From positions 1-22,730 of IMG/VR virus record IMGVR_UViG_3300027896_000243: a stretch of DNA of 22,730 nucleotides, one strand, 5' to 3'. This document shows, in pieces, positions 1-22,165 of the stretch. Each line of letters begins with the position of its first letter. The stretch's first letter is position 1. The notes beneath the pieces were generated by a model. That model was not told the origin of the DNA and did no database searches. It saw only the letters and a list, made by a program, of their open reading frames with translations. The stretch is from a virus. Both the position numbers and the translations under genes were made by a program.

Positions 1-446
1 TCGCCGATAATCTCCCGCTCGAACTGGGCGAAGGACAGGAGGACGTTCAGCACCAGCCGGCCCATTGAGGTCGCGGTGTTGAACTGCTGGGTGACGCTGA
101 CGAACGAGACGCTATGCCGGTCGAGCGCCTCGATGATACGGGCGAAGTCGAGGAGCGACCGCGACAGGCGGTCCACCTTGTAGACGACGATGCAGTCGAC
201 CTTCCCGGCCTCGATGTCGGCCAGAAGGCGTTTCACCGCCGGGCGGTCCATGTCGCCGCCGCTGTAGCCGCCGTCGTCGTAGCGATCCTTGAGGCAGACC
301 CATCCCTCGTTCTTCTGGCTGGCGACGAACGCCTCGGCCGACTCGCGCTGCGCGTCCAGGGAGTTGAAGTCCTTGTCGAGCCCCTCATCCGTGGACTTGC
401 GGGTGTAGATGGCGCAGCGGACGGTCTTCGTGGCAGGTTTGATCAC
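1..446 (-). CDS. Large serine recombinase (site-specific integrase), 3' end missing
   Basis: The protein reads leftward from a GTG at 446-444 and is still open at base 1, so only about 148 N-terminal residues are visible. These form the serine resolvase/invertase catalytic domain: the nucleophile lies in IYTRKS (Ser about residue 18), followed by DAQRE, YDDGGYSGG, the VYKVDRLSRS segment (about 89-97) and the QFNTATSMGRLVLNVLLSFA helix (about 121-140) with QFERE after it. Family knowledge: such enzymes make a covalent 5'-phosphoserine link and integrate or excise phage DNA between short att sites. The DNA-binding and coiled-coil regions that would confirm the large serine integrase class lie off the edge. 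The start overlaps the upstream DUF2924 stop as GTGA, so translation is probably coupled. The att site should lie beyond the left edge. Confidence 0.93.
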   Translation of the reverse strand, partial: MIKPATKTVRCAIYTRKSTDEGLDKDFNSLDAQRESAEAFVASQKNEGWVCLKDRYDDGGYSGGDMDRPAVKRLLADIEAGKVDCIVVYKVDRLSRSLLDFARIIEALDRHSVSFVSVTQQFNTATSMGRLVLNVLLSFAQFEREIIG

Positions 447-937
447 GCGTTGTCTCCCTTCTTGCCGGCGAGTCCGAAGAAGAGGTGCCCGCTCCAGTGG
501 GCGCCCGTAACCTTCTGGGCCACGGCGCTCAGGGAGCGGAAGACCTCGCCCTCGTACTCGAAGCCTCCATCGAGCACGGTCACGCGGACGATCTGACGTT
601 TGTACTCGCGTACAAGTACAGTCCCTGGCACTGGCAGGCGGCTGTCGGGCGGCGCCGCGACTTTGCCGCACACGGTCGGGCCAGCCCCGGCCGCCCTGAC
701 CCTCGGGCCGCTCAACCGCAGGTCGGCGTCTTTGGCGAGTTCCTCAGCCCGGCGCCGTGCCCGCTCTGAGAGGCCGCCTTCCTCATTCGCCTGCATCCGC
801 CAGATGATGCGTTTCCACAGGAGCTGCTTGTGCCGCGACCGGCACTCTTCGCCGAACACCTCGGCGTACCGCGTTCGCAGCTCCGGGACGGTCATCGCCT
901 TCAGGGCGGCGACCTCCTTCTCGACGTTCAGCTTCAT
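443..937 (-). CDS. DUF2924 family protein, integrase partner
   Basis: This 164-residue protein starts at the ATG at 937-935, preceded on the minus strand by a strong GGAGG site. The N-terminal half is charged and helical (EVAALKAMTVPELRTRYAEVF, then SRHKQLLWKRIIWRMQ) and the C-terminal half has a beta-rich pattern: PGTVLVREYKRQIVRVTVL, then FEYEGEVFRSLSAVAQKVTG and HWSGHLFFGL. This is the DUF2924 pattern as I know it, a family commonly found beside serine recombinases in phage-like islands. Its biochemical role is not established; directionality or accessory functions have to be considered but nothing in the sequence proves them. The stop overlaps the recombinase GTG by four bases, so the two proteins are made from one message. 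Confidence 0.88.
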   Translation of the reverse strand: MKLNVEKEVAALKAMTVPELRTRYAEVFGEECRSRHKQLLWKRIIWRMQANEEGGLSERARRRAEELAKDADLRLSGPRVRAAGAGPTVCGKVAAPPDSRLPVPGTVLVREYKRQIVRVTVLDGGFEYEGEVFRSLSAVAQKVTGAHWSGHLFFGLAGKKGDNA

Positions 938-1015: not shown

Positions 1016-1198
1016 TCAATTCCGGGAGAATTCCGGAGGTTCTTCGGAGGCCGGCGGCGGCTCGGCCTGCTCGGGTGGTTCCTCGGGCACGTACCCGCGT
1101 CGGCACTTCAGGCGCAGGAAACCCGTGGCGAGAATGGCGGCAAGTTCGCCGACAATGTCCTCGGCGGTGGTCACGTCAGGCTCACGTGTGGCGGGCAT
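1016..1198 (-). CDS. Small hypothetical protein, first gene of integration operon
   Basis: A 60-residue reading frame begins at the ATG at 1198-1196 with a well-placed GGAGAG ribosome site just upstream on the minus strand. The first half is a plausible helix (TTAEDIVGELAAILATGFLRLKCRR) and the second half is rich in Pro and Glu (VPEEPPEQAEPPPASEEPPE), probably disordered. I do not recognise a family. It lies 78 bases upstream of DUF2924 and 28 bases downstream of the conserved 39-bp element at 1227-1265, so it is probably the first gene of a leftward operon ending in the recombinase. Its short length leaves some doubt that it is a gene, but the ribosome site and position favour it. Confidence 0.6.
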   Translation of the reverse strand: MPATREPDVTTAEDIVGELAAILATGFLRLKCRRGYVPEEPPEQAEPPPASEEPPEFSRN

Positions 1199-1226
1199 AG
1201 GCTTCTCTCCGTCGGCTGTTGAAGGC

Positions 1227-1265
1227 CCTATTAGTTACCTACCGGAGCCGGACGCAAAGCGCCGG
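1227..1265 (-). promoter_or_regulatory. 39-bp conserved element, copy A, leftward promoter candidate
   Basis: Read on the minus strand this matches the element at 3031-3069 at about 36 of 40 aligned positions, with one base inserted and one deleted. Conserved blocks are CCGGCGCTTTGC, TCCGGCT, CCGGTAGGTA and AATAGG. A TTGCGT hexamer is followed 18 bases later by TAATAG, which would pass as a sigma-70-like -35/-10 pair. The element ends 28 bases before the start of the first gene of the integration operon. Conservation of the spacer as well suggests an overlapping regulator site. Confidence 0.6.
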
Positions 1266-1425
1266 AAACTACCGCCGAAAAATCCGCCCGCGGAGCGCCG
1301 AAAAAAAACTGGTGAGGGTCATGTTTTTTGCTTGGCGCGCGGGGGGCAGGTTTTAGAATCCGTTTAGAAAGCGCAACGAGTTCCCACATCGGCAGCTGAG
1401 AGAACAGGGCGTTCCCGGAATCTCC

Positions 1426-1887
1426 TGGCGCTTGCGCCATAACGCAACGAAAAGGCGCGGGCTACGGCCCGCGACACCATAAAGCCATGAAAACCCCAAC
1501 GTTACCCGCCGTTCGTGGAACCCCGCCCTCAACGGGGTCCTGCCGTTGCCTTCCTATCGGATGCCCCAAGTCGACTCAGGACCAGTCTTCAGCCCGGAGC
1601 CCGGACGCAATAGTCGGGCGGCGCTAGAGCGGTTCTGACTCCGAGTTAGAAGACCTGGGGCGGAATCTCTCGACGTGTGCGCGGATTCCCTCCTCCTGAC
1701 TTGGCTGGCTGGCGTCTTTGGGGCCATCCAAGCGGTCTTCTTCTCGCGAAGAACGGACCCACTCTAGCGGCCGCAGCCCTGCTGCGGCCGGCTCTCTTTC
1801 AGGGAGAGCCCAAGACCGGTCCGACTGCGCGCCGAGATAGCCCTTCGCCGGTTGAGCACGACCGCCTATGTCGTGGCTGAGCGAAGG
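1426..1887 (+). ncRNA. Candidate structured RNA or structured leader (serial stem-loops)
   Basis: No convincing gene lies between 1199 and 1927, but this part is full of inverted repeats: palindrome 1426-1439; 1456-1462/1467-1473 (7 bp closed by a C(UACG)G tetraloop); 1520-1525/1533-1538; one near 1630-1650 with a G-U pair; GGAATC/GATTCC arms near 1660-1690; 1738-1743/1748-1753; 1768-1776/1782-1790 (9 bp); 1790-1796/1804-1810; and 1842-1848/1881-1887 enclosing 1857-1862/1870-1875. At least two stems need G-U pairs if transcribed rightward and would be C-A mismatches leftward, hinting at plus-strand RNA. It could be a phage non-coding RNA or the leader of the gene at 1928. High GC makes chance hairpins common, so this is a hypothesis. 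Confidence 0.4.
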
Positions 1888-1927
1888 CCGGGGGTCATCT
1901 GTTGTGCGTGTTGCAGGGGACAAGACC

Positions 1928-2266
1928 ATGAAGACCGTGTCCGGAAGTGGTGATGAGTTCGGGATTCTTCCCCCCAGCTCCCAGCGTCTGCTCCGGTTGA
2001 TGCAGGAGGTCAATCACGGGCGGATCGAGCGGCTGTTCTTCCGAAACGGCGAGCCGGTCTGGGACCCGGCGCCGAAGCCGTTCTACAGCGGGAAGGCCGG
2101 GGGCGAGATCGGCGTCCGGCCCGAGAGGGAGGCCGCCAACTTCGCGCTCAAGACGGCCGTGAAAGACCTGCGCAAGGACCTCGCGCGGCACGGGAGCGGC
2201 CTCGTGAGGTTCATCGTGGTGAAGAACGGGCTGCCGCTCGTCTGGGAGATCGAGAAGACATCGTAG
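1928..2266 (+). CDS. Hypothetical 112-residue protein before the sigma genes
   Basis: I place the start at the ATG at 1928, preceded by a GGGGA site about seven bases away, rather than at an upstream in-frame codon inside the hairpin at 1842-1887. The protein has an N-terminal helix (PPSSQRLLRLMQEVNHGRIERLFFRNGEPVW), a proline-rich middle (DPAPKPFYSGKAGGEIGVRPERE) and a C-terminal helix-strand unit (FALKTAVKDLRKDLARHGSG, then VRFIVVKNGLPLVWEIE). It reminds me of small uncharacterised proteins common in planctomycete genomes with a similar GRIE...GEPV...RPE...KNGLP layout, but I cannot name a function. There are no membrane segments or cysteines. It precedes two sigma-like genes, so a role in regulation is possible but unproven. 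Confidence 0.8.
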   Translation: MKTVSGSGDEFGILPPSSQRLLRLMQEVNHGRIERLFFRNGEPVWDPAPKPFYSGKAGGEIGVRPEREAANFALKTAVKDLRKDLARHGSGLVRFIVVKNGLPLVWEIEKTS

Positions 2267-2447: not shown

Positions 2448-3023
2448 GTGGCGATTCAGGATGTCGGTCCCGAGGCCTGGGAGAGCATCCGGCGCGGAGC
2501 CCGGAAACTCATCGGCCACTTTGGATTCACGAAGTCCGATCGCGAAGAACTCGAGCAGGAGTTCTGGTTGGACCTCGTCGAGAGGCGGGGGAAGTTCAGC
2601 CCTGCCTTGGGCACTTGGCCAGCCTTTGCCGAGTGGGTTGTCCGGAAGAAGGCGGCGTCGATCATCGAGGCCCGGAAGGCCGGATGCCGGGACTATCGAC
2701 GGCACGAGTGTTCCCTGAACGAGGAGCGGCCGGAAGGCGACGACGAAGTCGTCGAACTCGGTGACGCGGTAGCCGAGGCCGCCGCTCGCCGGCACCGGGA
2801 CGTGGTCCCGCCCGATCCAGGACAGGCCTCGGACCTGGCCGCCGACCTCGCGCAGTTCGCTGCCCGCCTGCCTGAAGACCTGCGGGACATTTTCCTCCGC
2901 CTTCGTACAGGCACACCCACCCAAGTGGCCCAAGACCTGGGCATTCCCCGCGGGACCCTTTACGAGGCCCTTGAGGCACTGCGCCGCCGGATGGGAAAGG
3001 CGGGCTTTGCAGAATATTTGTGA
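2448..3023 (+). CDS. Sigma-70-like protein 1
   Basis: A 191-residue protein starts at GTG 2448 behind a GGGGGAGG ribosome site. Residues about 11-80 resemble sigma region 2 (REELEQEFWLDLVERRGKF, then WPAFAEWVVRKKAASIIEARKAG), and residues about 138-185 resemble region 4: LPEDLRDIFLRLRTGTPTQV followed by the helix-turn-helix AQDLGIPRGTLYEALEALRR. Length and order match group 4 (ECF-like) sigma factors, which direct RNA polymerase to alternative promoters. Region 2 is divergent and the linker is long and acidic, so a DNA-binding regulator derived from a sigma factor is an alternative. It is followed 113 bases later by a second protein of the same design. The 181 bases before it (2267-2447) hold small hairpins but no convincing gene. 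Confidence 0.8.
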   Translation: MAIQDVGPEAWESIRRGARKLIGHFGFTKSDREELEQEFWLDLVERRGKFSPALGTWPAFAEWVVRKKAASIIEARKAGCRDYRRHECSLNEERPEGDDEVVELGDAVAEAAARRHRDVVPPDPGQASDLAADLAQFAARLPEDLRDIFLRLRTGTPTQVAQDLGIPRGTLYEALEALRRRMGKAGFAEYL

Positions 3024-3030
3024 CCAACTC

Positions 3031-3069
3031 CCGGCGCTTTGCTCCGGCTTCCGGTAGGTACCCAATAGG
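3031..3069 (+). promoter_or_regulatory. 39-bp conserved element, copy B, before second sigma gene
   Basis: This is the plus-strand counterpart of the element at 1227-1265 and has the same orientation relative to its downstream gene. TTGCTC is followed 18 bases later by CAATAG, aligning with TTGCGT/TAATAG in copy A. It starts eight bases after the first sigma gene stops and ends 67 bases before the second sigma start, so the second gene probably has its own promoter or regulator site. Confidence 0.6.
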
Positions 3070-3136
3070 GACTTGATCGACTCGCGGCGGGATTCGCGAG
3101 CCGGAGAATGGGAATTTTGCAGCAGGAGATTTGCAG

Positions 3137-3700
3137 ATGGCCACCTCACACAGCGTGCCTACGGCTTCTGAGTTCCTGGACGATGTGACCCAGCGGCGTA
3201 TTCGCCGCCGCGTTGCCCGCCTGGGCCGGAAGTTCGCCCTGTCTCGGGAGGACATGGAGGATCTCCGGCAGGATTTCCGCATGGCGCTGGTCTCGGCCCG
3301 GGTTCAGTACGACCCCGCCAAGTGCCCGTTGCGCCGGTTCATCACGATGGTCCTGAACCGGCGCTACAAGTACCGGGTCCGGCAGTTGTACCTGCTCAGT
3401 CACCACCGCGGGTTGACGCCGAACGCTATCCCCCTGGACGACCTCGCCCCCGACGGCGACGCCCCGATCACCGATCCACGGCTGGAAGCGGCGCTGGTCC
3501 AGGTGGAGCTTAGCCACGACATCGAGCAGGCATCCAAGGGGATGACGGACCTCGAGCGCGGCGTGTGTGCGCTCCTGATGTCCGGTCACACGCAGACCGA
3601 GGTGTCGCGGAGGCTGGGTGTCGTCCCGTCCACGGTGACGCGGGCTATGGACCGCATCCGCTGCCACCTCTCCCGGGCCGGCCTGAACCCGACCGCCTGA
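3137..3700 (+). CDS. Sigma-70-like protein 2
   Basis: The ATG at 3137 is chosen because an AGGAG site lies eight bases upstream; an in-frame TTG at 3131 is less well placed. The 187-residue product has a region-2-like N-terminus (RIRRRVARLGRKFALSREDM, EDLRQDFRMALVSARVQYDP, then RRFITMVLNRRYKYRVRQLY; about 20-85) and a region-4-like C-terminus with a clear helix-turn-helix, HTQTEVSRRLGVVPSTVTRA, at about 151-170. It shares the domain order of the preceding sigma-like gene but little identity, so the pair may be anciently related or recruited separately. Family knowledge suggests promoter selection with host RNA polymerase. The gene is immediately followed by the conserved element at 3703, which heads the replication operon and could be its target. 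Confidence 0.8.
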   Translation: MATSHSVPTASEFLDDVTQRRIRRRVARLGRKFALSREDMEDLRQDFRMALVSARVQYDPAKCPLRRFITMVLNRRYKYRVRQLYLLSHHRGLTPNAIPLDDLAPDGDAPITDPRLEAALVQVELSHDIEQASKGMTDLERGVCALLMSGHTQTEVSRRLGVVPSTVTRAMDRIRCHLSRAGLNPTA

Positions 3701-3702
3701 GA

Positions 3703-3746
3703 TTTCACGCAAAAATTACACCCCGACCGCAAAAAGACATAGGTGG
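3703..3746 (+). promoter_or_regulatory. Phage promoter candidate, copy C, heads replication operon
   Basis: Two blocks match the element at 20401-20444 with identical spacing: TTTCACGCAAA at 3703 and a 24-base identical block at 3723-3746 that includes GCAAAAAGACATAGGTGG. The intervening bases differ, so the conservation looks functional rather than a recent duplication. The element starts three bases after the second sigma gene ends and 83 bases before the first replication gene. No standard -35/-10 pair is obvious, which fits recognition by an alternative sigma factor or activator. Confidence 0.6.
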
Positions 3747-3785
3747 GGGAGACGCACAAATGGGGCCTCTCACAAGGAGCACACG

Positions 3786-4529
3786 ATGACCCTGATGGAC
3801 TCGTTGATCAGAACCACGCACCTTGCACCCCCGAAGATGATCGTCTATGCCCCGCCGGGCACGGGCAAGACGACGTTCGCCGCGTCGGCGAAGGCCATCC
3901 TCGTCGACTGCGAGAACGGGGCCGGTGCCGTGCCAAACCTGGCGCGGACGCCGTACCTGCAGAGCTGGCCGGAAATGCGGAAATGGCTGGTCGAACTGGC
4001 CTCGAAGCCGCCCGAGGGCGTCCCGGCCGTGGCCATCGACACCATCGACTGGATGGTCCAGCGGATCGTCGAGCACGTGGTGGTGGACCTGGACGGCAAG
4101 TCGCCCAAGGACGTCACGAACACCCTCGGCACGGCCCACGGCGGGTACTTCAAGGCCCGCGAGATCGTCCAGAACATCGTCTACCGCGACCTTCTGCCGA
4201 TGCTCAATGCCCTGGCCAACAGCGGCTTGGCGATCATCCTCTTGGCCCACGCGGCGAACACCAAAATGACCACACCGGAGGGGTTCGACATCCGGCTGGC
4301 CGGCCCCGACCTGCCCCAGTGGATCGCCCCGCCGTTCATCGAGTGGGCCGACGCCGTGCTCTACGCCGTGCGCGACGGGGACCGTCGCATCCTGAAGACG
4401 GAAGGCTCGAACGTCATCCTGGCGAAGAACCGCTACGGCCTCCCGGCGGAGTTGCCCCTCTCGTGGTCGGCCCTGATGCAGGCGCTGGCAGGCAACCGGA
4501 ACGACACAACGGGGCACGACCATGAGTGA
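3786..4529 (+). CDS. RecA-like phage nucleotide-binding ATPase (AAA_24 type)
   Basis: This 247-residue protein starts at ATG 3786 with an AAGGAG site six bases upstream. A Walker A motif APPGTGKT is at residues 22-29, followed by DCENGAG and a Walker-B-like strand AVAIDTIDW at about 81-89. LAIILLAHAANTK near 154-166 resembles the sensor segment of RecA-fold ATPases. The arrangement matches phage AAA_24/TIGR01618-type proteins, which include Sak4-like ATPases in single-strand annealing or recombination modules. The neighbouring DUF669 and RusA genes support a role in phage recombination or replication. Residue-level evidence does not separate a recombinase from a general nucleotide-binding accessory factor. 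Confidence 0.85.
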   Translation: MTLMDSLIRTTHLAPPKMIVYAPPGTGKTTFAASAKAILVDCENGAGAVPNLARTPYLQSWPEMRKWLVELASKPPEGVPAVAIDTIDWMVQRIVEHVVVDLDGKSPKDVTNTLGTAHGGYFKAREIVQNIVYRDLLPMLNALANSGLAIILLAHAANTKMTTPEGFDIRLAGPDLPQWIAPPFIEWADAVLYAVRDGDRRILKTEGSNVILAKNRYGLPAELPLSWSALMQALAGNRNDTTGHDHE

Positions 4530-5904: not shown

Positions 5905-6540
5905 ATGATCGCCATCCGACGCGTGTATGTCGCCGGGCCAATGACCGGCTACGAGGACCACAACTTCCCCGCCTTCCATGCCGCCGCCGACCGGTTCCGC
6001 CAGGCCGACTGGGAGGTCGCCAATCCGGCCGAGAACTTCGGAGGCCGGACCGACCTGCCGCGGGAATCGTATCTGCGGGCCGACCTTGTGCTCCTCGCGC
6101 GGTGCGACGCCATCGCCGTGCTACCCGGCTGGCAATCCTCCCGCGGCGCGCAGATGGAGTACCTCCTGGCCCGCGCCCTCGGCATGGCCGTTCTCGACGC
6201 GGAGTCGCTCGGGCCGCTGGCGAACCCACCTGACGCCGACGTCATGCTGTCGTGGGAGCTTCAGCCGGAGTCCGTCCTGGACGAGGCCAAGCGAATCACC
6301 GCCACGGACCGCCAGGCGTCCTATGGCCACCCCGTCGACGACTTCACGAAGACAGCCCACATGTGGACTGGCATCTTCGCCGGCCGCCTGCGCGAGGGCG
6401 CGGCCGTGACGCCGATGGACATCCCAATCTGCATGATCGCCGTGAAGCTCGCCCGCCAGGTCCACCGCCACAAGCGCGACAACCTCGTTGACATCGCCGG
6501 GTACGCCCGGACCGCCTCGATGGTGGCCGGGGACGAATGA
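5905..6540 (+). CDS. DUF4406-DUF6378 two-domain protein
   Basis: The 211-residue product starts at ATG 5905, three bases after the RusA stop. Residues 1-105 show the DUF4406 fold, related to nucleoside 2-deoxyribosyltransferases: VYVAGPMTGYEDHNFPAF (7-24), an RADLVLLARCDAIAVLPGW segment (58-76) and SRGAQMEYLLARALGM (79-94). Residues about 123-211 match DUF6378: SVLDEAKRITATDRQASYGH, then FTKTAHMWTGIFAG and a helix with IPICMIAVKLARQVHRHKRD and NLVDIAGYAR. Both halves occur in phages, where a role in nucleotide metabolism is suspected. No catalytic test is possible by eye. The gene ends in an ATGA overlap with the phosphoesterase. Confidence 0.85.
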   Translation: MIAIRRVYVAGPMTGYEDHNFPAFHAAADRFRQADWEVANPAENFGGRTDLPRESYLRADLVLLARCDAIAVLPGWQSSRGAQMEYLLARALGMAVLDAESLGPLANPPDADVMLSWELQPESVLDEAKRITATDRQASYGHPVDDFTKTAHMWTGIFAGRLREGAAVTPMDIPICMIAVKLARQVHRHKRDNLVDIAGYARTASMVAGDE

Positions 6541-10067: not shown

Positions 10068-12230
10068 ATGCAGCAGTTCATCGAGACCATGTTCGGCGAT
10101 GCGCTCGCGCCCGACCGGCGACTGTGCATCTTCACCACGCCGGACAAGCGATCCGCGTTCTTTGCCGATGCTGGTCAGGCCGTGGCCTATGTCCGCGAGC
10201 GGGCCGCCGCGCAGAACGTGTACTACGGCGTCGGCCTCGTCAGGGGCCAGCCCGCGGGGCGCGGCGCGGCCGAGGACGTCGCCGCCATCGGGGCGCTCTG
10301 GGCGGATATCGACATCGCGGGGCCGGCCCACGCGGGCAAGGCGCTGCCGCCGACCGTCGAGGACGTGGAGCGGTTGCTCCACCAGTTGCCGCACGCGCCC
10401 TCCATCTTGGTCCACAGCGGCCACGGCGTCCACGCCTACTGGCTCCTCAAGGAACCGTGGGTTTTCGACAGCACCGAAGAGCGCAACCGCGCCGCCCGCA
10501 TGGCGAGAGGCTGGCACGGCGCCGTCTGCGCCATCGGTGAATCATTCGGCTGGCACATGGAGAACCTCGGCGACCTGGCCCGCATCCTGCGGTTGCCGGG
10601 CACGCTCAACCACAAGATCGCGCCGTCGGCCGAGGTCCGCATCATCGAGACGTCTGAGGACCGCTACAACCCGACGGACTTCGAGCCGTACCTGGCCAGC
10701 GACCCGTCGCCGCCGGCCACAGCCGGCGACCTCGTGCTCAGGCCGGACGTCATGCCGCCCCTCGACAGGATGATGGAGGCCGCCTCGGCCAGTCCCAAGT
10801 TCGTCGAGACCTGGCAGCGGAAACGCACGGATCTCTCGGACCCGTCCCAGAGCGCTTACGACCTGAGCCTGGCCACCCTCGCAGCCACGCTCGGCTGGGC
10901 GGATCAGGAGATTGCCGACCTCATCATCGCTGCCCGTCGGCACCACAACGACAAGCCCGACAAGGCCCTGCGCCGCGACTACATTGCCGCCACCTTGGCG
11001 AAGGCACGGCAGGCGGTTGCCGCGATGCCGACCGAGGGCCCCGACGTGGACCTGTCGGGCATCGTCGGCCAGGCGGCCGCTTCGAAGGCCGGCGTCGATC
11101 CCGCCGTCATGGTCGGCGGCCTACGCGTCGATGCCGTCTGCCTGGCCGACGTGGTGCCCGAGCCTGTCCGCTGGCTCTGGCCGGGCCGATTTGCCCTCGG
11201 CAAGCTCTCCCTCATCGCGGGCGAGCCGGGCCTCGGGAAGTCTTTCGTGACTCTGGACATGGCGGCCCGCGTCTCGCGCGGCGACGGTTGGCCGTGCAAC
11301 GAGGGCGCCACGTGCGAGCCCGCCGGCGTCGTCCTCTTGAGCGCCGAGGACGAGGTCAACGACACGATCGCGCCGCGTCTCATTGCGGCCGGGGCCGATC
11401 GCTCGCGCATCCTGGCCATGCGGGCACTCTACAAGCCGGTGCTTAACCTCGGCGGCGAGATTGAGAAGTCCGTGCATTTCAGCCTGCTCGAACACATCCC
11501 CCAACTGGAGTCGCTGATCCAGCGGGCCGCCCCGTGCCGCCTGGTCGTCGTCGATCCGGTGAGCGCCTTCCTGGGCAGTACCGATTCCCACAACAACAGC
11601 GAGGTGCGGGCCGTCCTTGCGCCCCTGGCTGAGATGGCCGCCCGTAACCACGTGGCCGTCGTGGCCGTGACGCACCTCAACAAGGGCCAGGGCAGCGCCC
11701 TCAACCGCGTGATCGGCTCGATTGCCTTCACGGCCGCCGCCCGGGCCGCCTACGTCGTCACACGGGACGAAGACGATCCAGCCAGGCGGCTACTGCTCCC
11801 GGCCAAGAACAACCTGGGCCGCGATGAGGACGGCTTCGCCTACCGCCTGGAGGGCGAGGGCATTCCGTGCGTCGAGTGGGAGCCGATGCCAGTGACCATG
11901 ACGGCCGACGAAGCGGTGGGCGTCGAGCACCATGCGCGTGGGCCGGAACCGGATGCACGCCACGATGCAGAGGCGTGGTTGCTGGACTTCCTGGCCGTCG
12001 GTTCGCAACCCGCGCAGGAGGTCTACGATGCGGCTGCCAGGGACGGGCACACGAGGGCCACCATCCGCAGGGCCAAGGCCACGATGAACATAGTCGCCAC
12101 GAAGGACGGCTATCAGGGCGCGTGGACCTGGACGTTGCCGGGCTCGGGGCCGCTCATGGCTGTCAGTGAACCGCCCTCCGTCAAAGGTGCGCCCAAAGGT
12201 GCTCAAAGGGGCCTGCCATCAGAAACTTGA
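10068..12230 (+). CDS. Primase-helicase fusion (AEP-like primase plus RepA-like AAA_25 ATPase)
   Basis: The 720-residue product starts at ATG 10068; GGAG upstream is rather far (13 bases). The N-terminal third resembles an archaeo-eukaryotic-type primase of plasmid/phage kind: IGALWADIDIAG with Asp 80 and Asp 82, SILVHSGHGVHAYWLL (112-127) and RILRLPGTLNHK (172-183). A helical linker follows (about 235-360). The C-terminal half is a hexameric RepA/AAA_25 helicase: Walker A GEPGLGKS (385-392), LLSAEDE (423-429), Walker B RLVVVDPVSAF (491-501) and VAVVAVTHLNKGQGSALNRV. It should prime and unwind at the phage origin. The final codons (KGAPKGAQRG) overlap the first 12-bp iterons, so coding sequence and origin seem to interlock. 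Confidence 0.9.
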   Translation: MQQFIETMFGDALAPDRRLCIFTTPDKRSAFFADAGQAVAYVRERAAAQNVYYGVGLVRGQPAGRGAAEDVAAIGALWADIDIAGPAHAGKALPPTVEDVERLLHQLPHAPSILVHSGHGVHAYWLLKEPWVFDSTEERNRAARMARGWHGAVCAIGESFGWHMENLGDLARILRLPGTLNHKIAPSAEVRIIETSEDRYNPTDFEPYLASDPSPPATAGDLVLRPDVMPPLDRMMEAASASPKFVETWQRKRTDLSDPSQSAYDLSLATLAATLGWADQEIADLIIAARRHHNDKPDKALRRDYIAATLAKARQAVAAMPTEGPDVDLSGIVGQAAASKAGVDPAVMVGGLRVDAVCLADVVPEPVRWLWPGRFALGKLSLIAGEPGLGKSFVTLDMAARVSRGDGWPCNEGATCEPAGVVLLSAEDEVNDTIAPRLIAAGADRSRILAMRALYKPVLNLGGEIEKSVHFSLLEHIPQLESLIQRAAPCRLVVVDPVSAFLGSTDSHNNSEVRAVLAPLAEMAARNHVAVVAVTHLNKGQGSALNRVIGSIAFTAAARAAYVVTRDEDDPARRLLLPAKNNLGRDEDGFAYRLEGEGIPCVEWEPMPVTMTADEAVGVEHHARGPEPDARHDAEAWLLDFLAVGSQPAQEVYDAAARDGHTRATIRRAKATMNIVATKDGYQGAWTWTLPGSGPLMAVSEPPSVKGAPKGAQRGLPSET

Positions 12231-12342
12231 GCCTCTTGAGCCCCTTTGAAGAAACCTGAGCACCTTTGCTTTAGAGAGAGAGAATCCAAAGGTGCTCAAG
12301 AGGCTCAAGTTGTTTGGGGCAGGAAGGGCGTGAGCACCTTTG
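12182..12342. repeat. Iteron cluster with long inverted repeat, candidate replication origin
   Basis: The 12-mer CAAAGGTGCTCA occurs perfectly at 12194-12205 and 12287-12298, and its exact reverse complement at 12257-12268 and 12331-12342. Near copies are at 12182-12190 (nine bases), 12204-12211 (degenerate) and 12237-12248 (inverted, 11 of 12). A larger inverted repeat, 12224-12248 with 12287-12311, pairs 24 of 25 bases around a 38-base loop. The cluster begins inside the primase gene and continues into the non-coding stretch before 12525. Iterons next to the initiator/primase gene are the classical arrangement of a theta-type origin; protein-mediated transcription control is an alternative. 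Confidence 0.6.
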
Positions 12343-12524
12343 GGCGAGGCGTAGGTACTACCCGGGTACCGCCCTCGACGGTGGGCATAGGGAGCAGTCG
12401 GAAGGTTCCTTTTAATTTGTTGCGAGTAGCGAACACGGGGCCGCCGCTCCTTTGTCTGGAGCTTTGCTGAGCCTTTGGGAACTGGAATGACAGGGGATCG
12501 TATCAGCCAGGGAGGTGAACATGG
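12343..12524. other. Gene-free stretch beyond the iterons
   Basis: No convincing gene lies here. It contains an AT-rich patch, CCTTTTAATTTGTTG, near 12408, unusual in this GC-rich region and compatible with a DNA unwinding element beside the iterons or with a promoter -10. The end holds the GGAGG ribosome site (12511-12515) for the next gene. Confidence 0.4.
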
Positions 12525-12959
12525 ATGGCGAACCTCACGGAATCGAGAGCATCGACCTCGGCCCAGGAAACCGTCAGGGGAATGACGGCGCAAGCGGCAC
12601 AGCAAGTGGCGCGGCGGGGGTCTCCGTCGTGGCGCGCAGCGGCGCCCAGCCTGGTCGCGCGGCTGTGTGGGGATCGGCACAACGGCCTGATGCTGGCCGA
12701 CCCCTGGTCACGAGCGGCCCACTGCATGGTACAGGGATGGGGAATCCGACTCAGTCGGGCGCCGGCCAAGGACAACGCCTCGATAAGGGCCCGGCCGAGG
12801 CCGACGTGGAAGGTGTTCGCCCGCCTAGCGGTGGGCATTGCCTTGCGGGCGGCGGACGATGCGAAGAGGAGCGACTGGAATCTCTGGGCCATTCGTCGGG
12901 GGAATCAGACACTGGCCGTCGGCGGTCGTTACATTCGCAAGAGCAATCGCAGTTGGTAA
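12525..12959 (+). CDS. Basic hypothetical protein upstream of HNH
   Basis: The frame starting at ATG 12525 has a GGAGG site nine bases upstream and mostly G or C in third codon positions, unlike the competing frame that starts at 12515 or 12521 and runs through to the HNH stop. The 144-residue product is strongly basic, with Trp-rich C-terminal segments (DPWSRAAHCMVQGWGIRLSR, then RSDWNLWAIRRGNQTLAVGG). I do not recognise a family. If the competing frame is the real one, the HNH gene would instead carry a long low-complexity N-terminal extension. Codon bias favours the call given here, with moderate confidence. Confidence 0.5.
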   Translation: MANLTESRASTSAQETVRGMTAQAAQQVARRGSPSWRAAAPSLVARLCGDRHNGLMLADPWSRAAHCMVQGWGIRLSRAPAKDNASIRARPRPTWKVFARLAVGIALRAADDAKRSDWNLWAIRRGNQTLAVGGRYIRKSNRSW

Positions 12960-13258
12960 ATAGCGCGGCCCCGCATGGCGCGGTCTCCACGGACAATGTG
13001 CTGCGCCTGCTGGATCACCAGCACTACCGCTGCGCCTTGACCGGCCGTTGCTTGACGCCGCAGACAGCCGCCCTTGACCACGTCATGCCCATGCGCCGTG
13101 GCGGCCAACACGCCATCGAGAACACCCAGGTACTCCACAAGGATGTGAACCGGGCCAAGGGATCGCTTTCCAACGAGGAGTTCCTCGCGATGTGCCGCGA
13201 GGTCGTTCAATGGACGGATTCAGCGTCGGAAAAAAGGAGAAGTAACCATGCAAGTTGA
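12953..13258 (+). CDS. HNH endonuclease
   Basis: The HNH domain is clear: LRLLDHQHYRCALTGRCLTP, then AALDHVMPMRRGGQHAIENT, then QVLHKDVNRAKGSLSNEEFL. The Cys-x-x-x-Gly zinc-knuckle-like start, the LDHVMP His and the Asn-x-x-Lys (VNRAKG) segment fit the beta-beta-alpha-metal nuclease. Start choice is uncertain: TTG at 12953 overlaps the preceding stop and is used here; GTG at 12998 would leave an 86-residue domain-only protein; and an in-frame codon at 12515 or 12521 would give about 245 residues. Family roles include DNA packaging nicking near terminase, homing or restriction. Its stop overlaps the following methyltransferase start by 11 bases, so a restriction-like partnership with that methylase is possible. 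Confidence 0.75.
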   Translation: MVNSAAPHGAVSTDNVLRLLDHQHYRCALTGRCLTPQTAALDHVMPMRRGGQHAIENTQVLHKDVNRAKGSLSNEEFLAMCREVVQWTDSASEKRRSNHAS

Positions 13259-14636: not shown

Positions 14637-15478
14637 CAATCGCGCGAGTGTTCCCCCGTCGCACGCGAGCCACGCCCGACGACGCCTTGGCGTTTGTCGG
14701 CGACCCGCCCCTCTTTCTGCCGCAGGCGGACGAGGTGCATGTCTCGTGCTGCTTTACGTGGGACCGCCCGGAGGCCGAGCGGCTCGGCCGGGCCTGGGCG
14801 GCGCAGGGGTACCGCGTCCAGCTGGGCGGGCCCGCCTACGGTTCCGCCGCCGGTGCCTTCGAGCCGGGCATGTACGTCAAGGCCGGCATGACGATCACGA
14901 GCCGCGGCTGCATCCGCCGCTGCCCCTTCTGTTTCGTGCCGGGCCGGGAAGGCAGGCTGTGCCTCCTGGAGATCAAGCCCGGCTGGGACATCCTCGACAA
15001 CAACCTCCTGGCTTGCCCGAAGGGGCATATCGAGGCGGTGCTCGGCATGCTGGACGGGCAGCCGAAACCGGCCCGGTTCACCGGTGGCATCGACGCGCGG
15101 CTGTGCCGGCCGTGGTTCGCGCGTCGTCTGGCGCGGATGCGCGTCCAGATCCTCTACACCGCGTTCGACCACCCGTCGGCGGAACCGGACGTGGAGCGGA
15201 CGGTCAGGATGCTGCGCGACGCGGGCCTCAGCCAGCGCCAGGTCGGCTGCTATGTCCTGGTGGGCTACGAGGGCGACACGACAGCGGCCGCCGAGGAGCG
15301 GCTCCAGTGGGTCTTCGACACGGGCGGGACGCCGTTCGCCATGTACTACCGCCCGCCCGACGACCGGCGGCCGCACATCCCGATGGCGTGGAAGGGCCTC
15401 GTGCGTCGGTGGGTCCGGCCGGCGTGCATCTTCGCCCGCCCGGAGACCGCCCCGGCCGAATGCTTGACCGGCGCGTAG
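14633..15478 (+). CDS. Radical SAM protein
   Basis: The start is GTG 14633, overlapping the methyltransferase stop, with GGAGGTGA upstream. The 281-residue product carries CIRRCPFC (Cys 93, 97, 100), the CxxxCxxC motif that binds the 4Fe-4S cluster of radical SAM enzymes. The N-terminal 80 residues (ADEVHVSCCFTWDRPEAERL, then GRAWAAQGYRVQLGGPAYGS) have a Rossmann-like pattern and later strands include FTGGIDARLC and VQILYTAFDHP, then VGCYVLVGYEGDT, as in the TIM barrel. The reaction cannot be read from sequence. Its coupling to a DNA methyltransferase suggests nucleic-acid modification as one possibility; a metabolic or protein-modifying role is equally open. Similar phage radical SAM proteins exist but are little characterised. 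Confidence 0.88.
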   Translation: MTIARVFPRRTRATPDDALAFVGDPPLFLPQADEVHVSCCFTWDRPEAERLGRAWAAQGYRVQLGGPAYGSAAGAFEPGMYVKAGMTITSRGCIRRCPFCFVPGREGRLCLLEIKPGWDILDNNLLACPKGHIEAVLGMLDGQPKPARFTGGIDARLCRPWFARRLARMRVQILYTAFDHPSAEPDVERTVRMLRDAGLSQRQVGCYVLVGYEGDTTAAAEERLQWVFDTGGTPFAMYYRPPDDRRPHIPMAWKGLVRRWVRPACIFARPETAPAECLTGA

Positions 15479-19609: not shown

Positions 19610-20272
19610 ATGAAGAAGAACGAGGTGAAGGTGGGCGGGCGTTATGTTGCCAAGGTGTCGGACAAGCTGACGCTGGTGCGGATCGACCGCGAGAACCCGC
19701 ATGGCGGGTGGGACGCGATCAACGAAAAGACCGGCAAGCCCGTCCGCATCAAGGGCGCCCAGCGCCTGCGAAGCGCGGTCCGCGACCACGCGAAGGAGAC
19801 GGCCGAGGTCCTGGGCCGGGGCCGCGCAGCGGCCGAAGCCAAGGCGGTCACCAAGGCCGAGGCGGTGGACGACGCCATGAAGGCCGCCCACGCCGCCAAG
19901 ACGCCGAAGGACGGCGCCCCGGCGGCGGACGGGCCCGCGACGTTGGCCCACGGGCCGCGATCGGACGCCGCCGCGGCCAAGGATGCCAAGGGCGGCAAGA
20001 AGGCCCGCAAGGCCGCCACGGGCGGCGAGGGGAAGAAGGGCATGAGCGGTCTGGACGCTGCCGCCAAGGTCCTGGCCGAGGCCGGCAAGCCGATGAAGTG
20101 CAAGGAGATGGTCGAGGCGATGCTCGCGAAGGGGTACTGGAAGACGGACGGCAAGACGCCCTCCGCCACCATCTACTCCTCCATCATCCGCGAGATCGCG
20201 GTGAAGGGCAAGGACGCCCGGTTCCGCAAGACCGACCGGGGCCTCTTCGAGGTGAGCCCGGCCAAGCAGTAA
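19610..20272 (+). CDS. HARE-HTH winged-helix protein with Ala/Lys-rich linker
   Basis: The 220-residue product starts at ATG 19610 behind AGAGGAG. Residues 1-50 form a small basic beta domain (VGGRYVAKVSDKLTLVRIDR), 51-144 are an Ala/Lys/Gly-rich linker of histone-H1-like composition, and 145-217 are a HARE-HTH winged helix: GLDAAAKVLAEAGKPMKCKE, MVEAMLAKGYWKTDGKTPSA and SIIREIAVKGKDARF, ending RGLFEVS. Family knowledge: HARE-HTH domains occur in RNA polymerase delta, restriction enzymes and chromatin proteins, and are thought to bind DNA or modified bases. A nucleoid-binding or transcription role fits. A terminator-like hairpin follows at 20293-20319. Confidence 0.85.
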   Translation: MKKNEVKVGGRYVAKVSDKLTLVRIDRENPHGGWDAINEKTGKPVRIKGAQRLRSAVRDHAKETAEVLGRGRAAAEAKAVTKAEAVDDAMKAAHAAKTPKDGAPAADGPATLAHGPRSDAAAAKDAKGGKKARKAATGGEGKKGMSGLDAAAKVLAEAGKPMKCKEMVEAMLAKGYWKTDGKTPSATIYSSIIREIAVKGKDARFRKTDRGLFEVSPAKQ

Positions 20273-20400: not shown

Positions 20401-20444
20401 TTTCACGCAAAGATCGGGGGCCGACCGCAAAAAGACATAGGTGG
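20401..20444 (+). promoter_or_regulatory. Phage promoter candidate, copy D, heads portal operon
   Basis: This repeats the element at 3703-3746: TTTCACGCAAA at 20401 and the identical 24-base block at 20421-20444, both at the same relative distance. A further CTCTCAC follows at nearly the same offset (20464 versus 3767). It precedes the small gene at 20490 and the portal. Because the two copies head the replication and head modules, a shared phage-specific activator or sigma factor is the simplest explanation. Confidence 0.6.
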
Positions 20445-20489
20445 AGGGGCAACGCGTCCGCGGCTCTCACGCACGCAAAGGTGCCGGCA

Positions 20490-20687
20490 ATGCCCGACGA
20501 ACTCGACAGCACCATTCAGGAAAACGCCTCCGGCCCCAAGCAGGCCTCCGGTGACGGCGTCAGCGTCGAGCAGCACCCGCTCCAGGATCAGATCGCGGCC
20601 GACCGGTACCTGGCATCGAAGAAGGCCGCGCGATCGAAGCGTCTCGGGCTTCGCCTCACAAAGGTCGTTCCCCCAGGAGCCGCATGA
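20490..20687 (+). CDS. Small head-tail-joining-like protein upstream of portal
   Basis: The ATG at 20490 follows AAAGGTG. The 65-residue product has an acidic, disordered start (MPDELDSTIQENASG) and a basic helix (DQIAADRYLASKKAARSKRL) ending in LRLTKVVPPGAA. It occupies the slot held by gpW-like joining proteins between terminase and portal in lambdoid phages, and resembles small proteins I have seen in that slot, but the match to gpW itself is not clear. It overlaps the portal gene by four bases (ATGA), so it is co-translated with it. Confidence 0.65.
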   Translation: MPDELDSTIQENASGPKQASGDGVSVEQHPLQDQIAADRYLASKKAARSKRLGLRLTKVVPPGAA

Positions 20688-22165
20688 CGATGGGGATCTG
20701 GAACCGAATTCGGTCGCTCGCGAGGCCCGCCATCCGTGGCGGGCAGCGGCTCGCGGTCCGCCTCGTGCGGGCCCGGTACGATGCCGCGCAGACGACCGAA
20801 GGCAACCGGAAGCACTGGGCGGGGGCCGACGGCTGGGCGGCCGACGTGGCCGCGAGGCCCGAGATCCGGCGTATCCTGCGGAACCGGGCACGCTACGAGG
20901 TCGCCAACAACAGCTACGTCCGCGGCATCATCCTCACGCTCGCCAACGACGTGGTCGGCACGGGTCCCCGGCTCCAGATGCTCACCGACGACGCTGAGGT
21001 CAACCGGCAGGTGGAGCGCGAGTTCGCCCGGTGGGCCACGCGTGTGAGCCTGGCCGCCAAGCTCCGCACGATGCGGATGGCCCGGGCCCAGGACGGCGAG
21101 GCGTTCGCGCTCCTCATCTCCAACCGGAACCTCGGTTCCCCCGTGACGCTGGACCTGCGCCTGATCGAGGCCGACCAGGTCGCGACGCCCACCCTCACCG
21201 GCAGCGTCTTTACCGACCCGAACGCCGTCGACGGCATCGCGTTCGACCCGTTCGGGAACCCCGAGGCCTACTACATCCTCAAGACCCATCCGGGCGCCCG
21301 GCTGTCGCTCGGCCTGGAATTCGACCGTGTGTCGGCCGACGCCGTCCTCCACTGGTTCCGCGCCGACCGGCCCGGCCAGCACCGGGGCATCCCGGACATC
21401 ACGCCAGCCCTCCCGATCTTCGCGCAGCTTCGGCGGTTTACGTCGGCGGTCCTGGATGCCGCTGAGACGGCAGCCAACATCTCCGGCACGGTCGAGACGG
21501 ATGCGCCGGCGAACGGCGAGGCCGAGGCCATCGAGCCGATGGACACCATCGAACTCGAACGCAACATGCTCCTCACGCTCCCGGGCGGCTGGAAGATGAG
21601 CCAGGTCCGGCCCGAGCAGCCGGCGACGACCTACGTCGAATTCGTCCGCGAGAAGCTGAACGAGGCGGCGCGGTGCCTCAACATGCCGCGGAACATCGCC
21701 CTCTGCGATTCGTCGGCCTACAACTACGCGAGCGGCCGGCTTGATCACCAGACGTACTTCAAGAGCATCCGTGTCGAGCAGGCCCACCTCGAAGACGTTG
21801 TGCTCGATCGGATCTTCGAGGCGTGGCTCGAGGAGGCGGTGCGCGTGTTCGGCCTTCTCCCCGCGCGCGCCCTGGCGATGCTCAACTATCCCCACCAGTG
21901 GTTCTGGGACGGCATGCAGCACGTCGACCCGGCCAAGGAAGCCAATGCCCAGGCCACGCGTCTTACGAGCCACACGACGACGCTGGCTGCCGAATACGCG
22001 CAGGAAGGCAAGGACTGGGAAACGGAGCTCCGGCAGCGGGCGAAGGAAGTGAAGCTCACGAAGGAACTGGGCTTGGACCTGGCCCAGGCCGGGCCGAAGC
22101 CCAAGACCGACACTTCGCAGGCAGACGAGGAGACCGGCAGTGGAGACGAACGTGCAGCCGCGTGA
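20684..22165 (+). CDS. Lambda-type portal protein
   Basis: The 493-residue protein starts at ATG 20684 (ATGA overlap) with AGGAG upstream. It shows the lambda portal family (gpB-like) order: ARYDAAQTTEGNRKHWAGAD, then RNRARYEVANNSYVRGIILT, LANDVVGTGPRLQM, RLIEADQVATP, VLHWFRADRPGQHRGIPDIT, then NMPRNIALCDSSAYNYASGR and LDHQTYFKSIRVEQAHLEDV. A dodecameric portal ring at the capsid vertex is expected, through which the terminase pumps DNA. The C-terminal 60 residues are acidic and probably disordered. Overlap with the next gene is 26 bases. Confidence 0.94.
   Translation: MTMGIWNRIRSLARPAIRGGQRLAVRLVRARYDAAQTTEGNRKHWAGADGWAADVAARPEIRRILRNRARYEVANNSYVRGIILTLANDVVGTGPRLQMLTDDAEVNRQVEREFARWATRVSLAAKLRTMRMARAQDGEAFALLISNRNLGSPVTLDLRLIEADQVATPTLTGSVFTDPNAVDGIAFDPFGNPEAYYILKTHPGARLSLGLEFDRVSADAVLHWFRADRPGQHRGIPDITPALPIFAQLRRFTSAVLDAAETAANISGTVETDAPANGEAEAIEPMDTIELERNMLLTLPGGWKMSQVRPEQPATTYVEFVREKLNEAARCLNMPRNIALCDSSAYNYASGRLDHQTYFKSIRVEQAHLEDVVLDRIFEAWLEEAVRVFGLLPARALAMLNYPHQWFWDGMQHVDPAKEANAQATRLTSHTTTLAAEYAQEGKDWETELRQRAKEVKLTKELGLDLAQAGPKPKTDTSQADEETGSGDERAAA

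Follow-up and report, generated by a model that had tools for sequence, protein, structure and literature searches.

Gene content of the locus

The DNA analysed here, called the window below, is an entire viral record of 22.7 kb from IMG/VR and is probably a fragment. Its plus strand encodes a 132-aa ORF, two sigma factors (sigma1 and sigma2), a Sak4-like ATPase, a helicase, a primase/helicase, a ParB-methylase, a terminase and a portal protein, while an operon containing a serine recombinase runs in the opposite direction at its left end. Two kinds of short non-coding element, A and B, stand at the heads of operons (Table 1). The small head-operon protein is conserved, as a similar ORF also precedes the portal gene in relatives. 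An Rfam scan of the window gave no match, leaving an explanation by RNA families unsupported there.

Several other genes of the window can be described. A protein encoded at 12515-13258 has an HNH part resembling its counterparts in IscB and Cas9d (E 1.6e-4 with NCBIfam, short of the cut-off), and ahead of its gene, at about 12200-12330, lies an AT-richer stretch bearing repeats. Between the methylase and the terminase, at 14642-15478, there is a possible radical-SAM protein (weak match, below the cut-off). A HARE-HTH domain protein (PF05066, 2.5e-12) is encoded at 19610-20272; in most relatives, the HARE-HTH gene lies on the opposite strand, between the methylase and the terminase.

Table 1. 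Positions of the genes and elements of the window that are discussed in the text
Feature	Position	Strand	Evidence
Serine recombinase, N-terminal part, truncated at window edge	1..446	-	PF00239 8.1e-33
DUF2924 protein	443..937	-	PF11149 6.3e-43
60-aa ORF, first in integrase operon behind element A(-)	1016..1198	-	ORF call; no Pfam match
Element A, heads divergent 60-aa ORF / DUF2924 / serine recombinase operon	1226..1268	-	23.0 bits, matrix without window
132-aa ORF ahead of sigma1	1868-2266	+	no family match
sigma1, ECF-like sigma factor, A clade, 191 aa	2448..3023	+	TIGR02937, AlphaFold sigma2+sigma4 domains, sigma tree
Element A, heads sigma2; predicted sigma1 promoter	3028..3070	+	19.0 bits, matrix without window
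sigma2, ECF-like sigma factor, B clade, 187 aa	3137..3700	+	TIGR02937, Sigma70_r2, AlphaFold, sigma tree
Element B, heads replication operon; predicted sigma2 promoter	3703..3749	+	17.0 bits, matrix without window and L224
Sak4-like AAA ATPase, first gene past element B, replication/recombination operon	3786..4529	+	phrog_124 1.9e-31; PF13479 5.1e-25
Element B, heads small head gene / portal operon	20401..20447	+	12.3 bits, matrix without window
Small conserved head-operon protein (MPDELDSTI...), first gene past second element B	20491..20688	+	sequence
Portal protein (lambda family)	20684..22165	+	PF05136 8.9e-60

Two ECF-like sigma factors

An earlier, sequence-only reading of this DNA had placed two sigma-like genes back to back, each with its own ribosome-binding site, and had proposed a profile search for sigma regions 2 and 4. 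Both ORFs are present as described: sigma1 has a GTG start with AGGGGGAGG upstream, and sigma2 has an ATG start with AGGAG upstream (and an in-frame TTG at 3131). Against the NCBIfam sigma70-ECF profile TIGR02937, for which the cut-off is 42.9 bits, sigma1 scores 45.6 bits and sigma2 scores 43.3 bits, so that both pass, and the match covers nearly the full length of each protein. The Pfam profile Sigma70_r2 matches sigma2 above the gathering threshold (4.3e-6) and sigma1 weakly, below it (0.0061), but is matched at E<1e-3 by 25 of the 29 members of the sigma1 family.

The AlphaFold models (pLDDT 84.9 for sigma1 and 85.9 for sigma2) both comprise a helical sigma2 domain, a low-confidence linker and a helical, C-terminal sigma4 domain of four helices. 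Region 2, on which the sequence-only reading depended, is therefore supported by the profiles, by the matches within the sigma1 family and by the models. The best matches of both models found by Foldseek in the PDB are sigma factors, mostly of the ECF type, with a probability near 1; the whole-chain TM against PDB sigma factors is only about 0.3, since the two domains are not fixed in their relative position. Regions 1.1 and 3 are lacking from both proteins, which have 187-191 aa and a linker alone between domains sigma2 and sigma4. Both genes encode ECF-like sigma factors (domains sigma2 and sigma4, without sigma3). When the proteins of the window were scanned against Pfam, PHROG and NCBIfam profiles, no anti-sigma neighbour of sigma1 or sigma2 was recognised, nor, among the scanned proteins of what is a fragment, a phage anti-sigma factor directed against the host sigma-70.

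Elements A and B

Both elements consist of two blocks. In the A element at 3028, the upstream block is CCGGCGCTTTGC and the downstream block is CCGGTAGGTACC; in the B element at 3703, CACGCAAA is followed, at a fixed spacing, by GCAAAAAGACATAGGTGG. The two copies of A lie on opposite strands and share 89% identity over 44 nt, and the two copies of B share 83% identity over 47 nt, including an invariant core of 24 nt. No shuffled window reached two copies of the A core or of the B core. Two families of repeated elements, of 39 bp and about 44 bp, had been noticed at module boundaries in the sequence-only reading, and both stand, with two copies each, A(+) heading sigma2 and the other three heading operons.

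The four copies can also be recovered from relatives, since the matrices that score them were trained without the window and, for the B copy at 3703, also without L224. With the A matrix, the 1226 copy is the best site in the window (23.0 bits) and the 3028 copy the second (19.0), with the next site at 9.6; with the B matrix, the 3703 copy is the best (17.0) and the 20401 copy the second (12.3), with the next at 8.6. Three relatives (L004, L013, L018) have B at the position equivalent to that of the 20401 copy, and the relatives' sites ahead of the integrase operon, i.e., at the place of A(-) in the window, are of the type of their own sigma. A search of viral contigs for the exact A core pattern gave no match. 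One match to the B core, in the unrelated phage L003, falls within a coding ORF and was set aside as chance.

Layout of sigma gene and element in relatives

No relative was found when viral contigs were searched with sigma1 or sigma2 as a single sequence, or when 50,697 phage records were searched with sigma2 by tblastn. Relatives were gathered with the portal protein and the helicase as baits, which gave 80 viral loci, 80 bacterial contigs and 80 further viral loci; the bacterial contigs, among them CP050848 (with prophage L147) and CP087563 (with prophages L166 and L167), come almost exclusively from MAGs and genomes of Planctomycetota. In most near-complete relatives, the gene order is sigma, Sak4, helicase, methylase, terminase, portal, often with DUF2924 and the serine recombinase nearby (conclusions on the integrase operon in relatives rest on the positions of DUF2924).

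When the region before the portal gene was compared with the rest of the same genome, the best match was often the stretch directly 3′ of the sigma gene (G000, G006, G007, G017, G019, G031, G041). The DNA 3′ of 85 plus-strand sigma genes mostly has an A-type or B-type element directly behind the gene or overlapping its stop codon. A-type elements have a GACA-like upstream block and, 22 nt on, a TAGGTAAC-like downstream block, and B-type elements have a CGCAACAGA-like block followed by a GCAGATGTAGAGGG-like block; in both types, the two blocks stand at a constant distance, across a weakly conserved spacer. A de novo motif search around the stop codons of 78 nonredundant sigma genes gave a log-likelihood of 208, against 35-40 in shuffled sets.

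An A or B element stands ahead of the replication operon in 52 of the 60 relatives with a plus-strand sigma gene, a count obtained with matrices trained on most of those relatives; in five-fold cross-validation, 38/46 A sites and 15/16 B sites are recovered. By comparison, such an element is found there in none of the 18 relatives whose sole sigma gene is divergent and on the minus strand, and in one of the 10 with no detected sigma gene. Thus, the elements keep company with the plus-strand sigma genes, as a pairing of the two would lead one to expect.

The minus-strand sigma-like gene of these 18 loci is of a third, more distant kind (L154, L156-L159, L175, L178, L184, L198, L203, L217, L236, L247, L253, L256, L281, L289 and L294). 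It diverges from the replication operon, some 0.9-1.5 kb away, and several of the loci have it leading into DUF2924 and the serine recombinase; all of them lack A and B there and may use a third promoter type. In two genomes, G007 (L108/L109, at about 24205-24303 of the record) and G001 (L006, at about 6258-6399), the portal gene is preceded by a tandem array of two or three B-type elements, of two subtypes, GCAGATGTAG and GCAAAAAGACA. A common GC-rich repeat (CGCCCGGGCGG...) occurs just after the sigma genes of L257, L263, L286 and L287, and is possibly a mobile element or a structured RNA inserted between the sigma and replication genes.

Element type follows sigma clade

A tree was made of 73 sigma factors, with element labels (48 A, 19 B) that had been set by eye from the sequence, after a look at 15 sigmas had suggested a pairing but before the tree existed. 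The A and B labels split on the deepest branch of this tree (support 100), i.e., with one change, a fit matched by none of 500 shuffles. The window's sigma1 falls in clade A and its sigma2 in clade B; the two proteins stem from two anciently separated clades. On the post-sigma regions, the A matrix finds sites in 42/48 of the A-clade and 0/19 of the B-clade regions, and the B matrix in 15/19 of the B-clade and 3/48 of the A-clade regions. The same labels need 13 changes on the helicase tree (shuffled mean 14.7) and 13 on the methylase tree (shuffled 13.6). Because this is no better than in shuffles, the sigma type appears to have been exchanged between phage backbones, with the element travelling along.

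The elements could instead bind a separate regulator of the phage, a repressor or an activator, for instance as operators, with the sigma genes adjoining them by chance. Operators can likewise be few, long and placed at the heads of modules. However, a site of this kind would not be expected to change once on the sigma tree and 13 times on each of the helicase and methylase trees, to consist of two blocks at constant spacing around a weakly conserved spacer, to lie behind a sigma gene in most relatives, or to be missing ahead of the replication operon in the 18 loci without a plus-strand sigma gene. Binding sites of a separate regulator are thus an improbable explanation, and most likely sigma1 reads A and sigma2 reads B.

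The post-sigma site is physically linked to the sigma gene, so that even perfect covariation there could by itself be hitch-hiking; the unlinked copies of the elements therefore weigh more.

Sites distant from the sigma gene

The sites before the portal gene were outside the training of the matrices. Among 76 such regions, 36 score above the 99% background level, where about 1.5 would be expected. In single-sigma phages, the pre-portal site has the type expected from the sigma clade in 26 of 29 cases (3 discordant; Fisher p 1.7e-4), although the concordant sites stand about 15 kb from the sigma gene. The discordant sites differ in quality: that of L173 is weak, and that of L280, a phage with a B sigma and an A-type pre-portal site, is the one real exception. 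The B-type match in L182 is a spurious one within the coding end of the small head gene, yet it is kept in the count as discordant. No pre-portal site was detectable in G039 and L240. Before DUF2924, i.e., ahead of the integrase operon, there are 11 clear sites, all of the type of the locus's own sigma.

Agreement extends to the individual letters of the elements. For type A, when the pre-portal site is compared with the same phage's own post-sigma copy, the two blocks score 7.68/10 and 13.11/15, against 4.75 and 9.56 when permuted (0/20000), whereas the likeness of the spacers is weaker (3.84/8 against 2.68, 1/20000).

These observations bear on the notion that the covariation reflects nothing but shared descent, a sigma gene and its adjacent element recombining together and the distant copies agreeing through the sampling of close kin. 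The physical linkage of the post-sigma element fits this notion, and a tree-based independent-pairs test on the helicase tree yields no more than 3 supported pairs, of which 2 are concordant and none is discordant, a number too small for significance. Against it, the sigma type is scattered over the backbone trees as in shuffles, yet sites about 15 kb away agree with it, and pre-portal blocks match the site of their own sigma far better than the spacers do. Shared descent as the whole explanation is accordingly very improbable. The pairing of sigma and element, which the sequence-only reading had offered as an inference to be checked by co-occurrence in relatives, is now strongly supported: element type matches sigma clade behind the sigma genes, with the single change on the sigma tree, and at 26 of 29 pre-portal sites, and matrices made without the window put its four copies at the top.

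A predicted two-step cascade

The layout of the window, sigma1 - A - sigma2 - B - replication, can be read as a second, B-clade unit of sigma gene and promoter placed behind a first. In phages with one sigma factor, which are the common case, the same element heads the replication, head and often the integrase operons. With two, sigma1, once made, would guide the host core RNA polymerase to two A promoters: A(+), just behind its own gene, would drive sigma2, and A(-), on the other strand, would drive the DUF2924/serine recombinase operon. Sigma2 would then guide the polymerase to two B promoters, of which one, just behind its gene, would drive the Sak4 replication operon and the other, about 17 kb downstream, the head/portal operon.

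An A-clade sigma gene directly precedes a B-clade sigma gene in four other phages (L162, L231, L285, L286). L286 has A between the sigma genes and B behind the second, as in the window; A lies between them in L162 as well and is visible in L285, while none is detectable there in L231, and no clear B site follows the pair in L162 and L285. Where a pre-portal site is found in two-sigma phages, its type is B in three of them (the window, L231, L285) and A in L286, and therefore the wiring of the head operon varies. Tandem sigma pairs with both members in clade A occur in L191 and L287.

The pairing could be right without there being a cascade, if sigma1 and sigma2 formed one early operon and were made simultaneously, each with a separate regulon (A, the integrase side; B, replication and head). 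The gap between the two genes is only about 113 nt, and no terminator was found in it, so that transcription from the promoter of sigma1 itself may also reach sigma2 (a simple sigma-70 scan gave no convincing host promoter ahead of sigma1); moreover, the head operon of L286 has an A site despite the presence of both sigma factors. Simultaneous production is nevertheless rather unlikely, as A lies exactly between the sigma genes in the window, L286 and L162 and is visible in L285, and as the same position in single-sigma phages heads the next operon, which implies a real output site.

It is thus highly probable that the window encodes two ECF-like sigma factors with A and B as their cognate promoters, sigma1 acting on sigma2 and the integrase operon, and sigma2 acting on the replication and head operons. 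We infer transcription initiation by each sigma factor, the temporal order and the dependence of sigma2 on sigma1. The sequence-only reading had suggested that the 39-bp element lets one sigma control the second, and that the second acts through the 44-bp element on the replication and head operons, which is what the pairing predicts. To this are added here the predicted promoter of sigma1 that also heads the integrase operon, and the A-then-B pair in four other phages.

Significance of the predicted sigma-promoter units

Sigma factors encoded by phages have been described before, but promoters have been identified for few of them. In this group, where the promoter stands behind the sigma gene, the sequence itself yields about sixty matches between sigma and promoter, with two specificities that clearly differ. 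These matches amount to a large natural collection of ECF-like sigma factors paired with promoters, in which the evolution of specificity can be studied. Gene regulation of phages in Planctomycetota, from which few phages have been studied, thereby becomes directly testable. The predicted two-sigma cascade suggests a step-wise gain, in which a second sigma-plus-promoter unit was inserted behind the first.

Perhaps, and this is put forward tentatively as a possibility short of an even chance, the ECF-like sigma is the master regulator of the integrase, replication and head operons, matched sigma/promoter sets being swapped between phage lineages, and two-sigma phages have split this regulon, with integration under sigma1 and the lytic side under sigma2, a sigma-based logic of lysis and lysogeny that would replace a switch made of a repressor only.

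Comparison with known systems

Phage sigma factors as such are not new; what seems to be new here is the predicted two-step arrangement of ECF-like phage sigmas in a phage group with serine recombinases; a literature search of partial coverage found no paired sigma-promoter units like these. The best structural and profile matches of sigma1 and sigma2 are host ECF sigma factors (SigE, SigL, SigH, RpoE), which they resemble in domain layout and fold. Host ECF sigmas are usually tied to an anti-sigma factor and to envelope stress, whereas those described here lie in a phage operon and apparently read phage promoters.

Among phage-borne sigma factors, Xpf of the PBSX prophage of B. subtilis, the positive control factor, is a sigma2-sigma4 (group IV) sigma (PMC10141391). 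By this description, it has the layout seen here, but PBSX has a single sigma rather than two. To our knowledge, neither a paired cascade nor an integrase output is known for Xpf. Phages phiEco32 and 7-11 have a phage sigma with low-copy, well-conserved middle and late promoters that can be found by pairwise intergenic comparison (PMC4331800). The window resembles them in having phage sigmas with predicted promoters of that kind; they differ in being lytic, with one sigma and an anti-sigma factor, whereas here there are two sigmas, no anti-sigma factor was seen in the window, and the gene order of sigma followed by promoter is repeated.

A further analogy is with SPO1, a large lytic phage of Bacillus in which gp34 works with gp33. 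Its successive phage sigmas, gp28 and gp34, direct the middle and late gene classes (PMC9429907). The window has two phage sigmas with separate predicted promoter sets and a sigma1-type element ahead of sigma2, and the likeness to SPO1 would lie in their predicted action in sequence. The window differs in that the two sigma genes are adjacent and ECF-like, each followed by its own predicted promoter, that the integrase operon is among the outputs, and that the phage has a portal of the lambda type together with a serine recombinase. By analogy, the system in the window would work like the SPO1 cascade, in a presumably unrelated, temperate group of phages.
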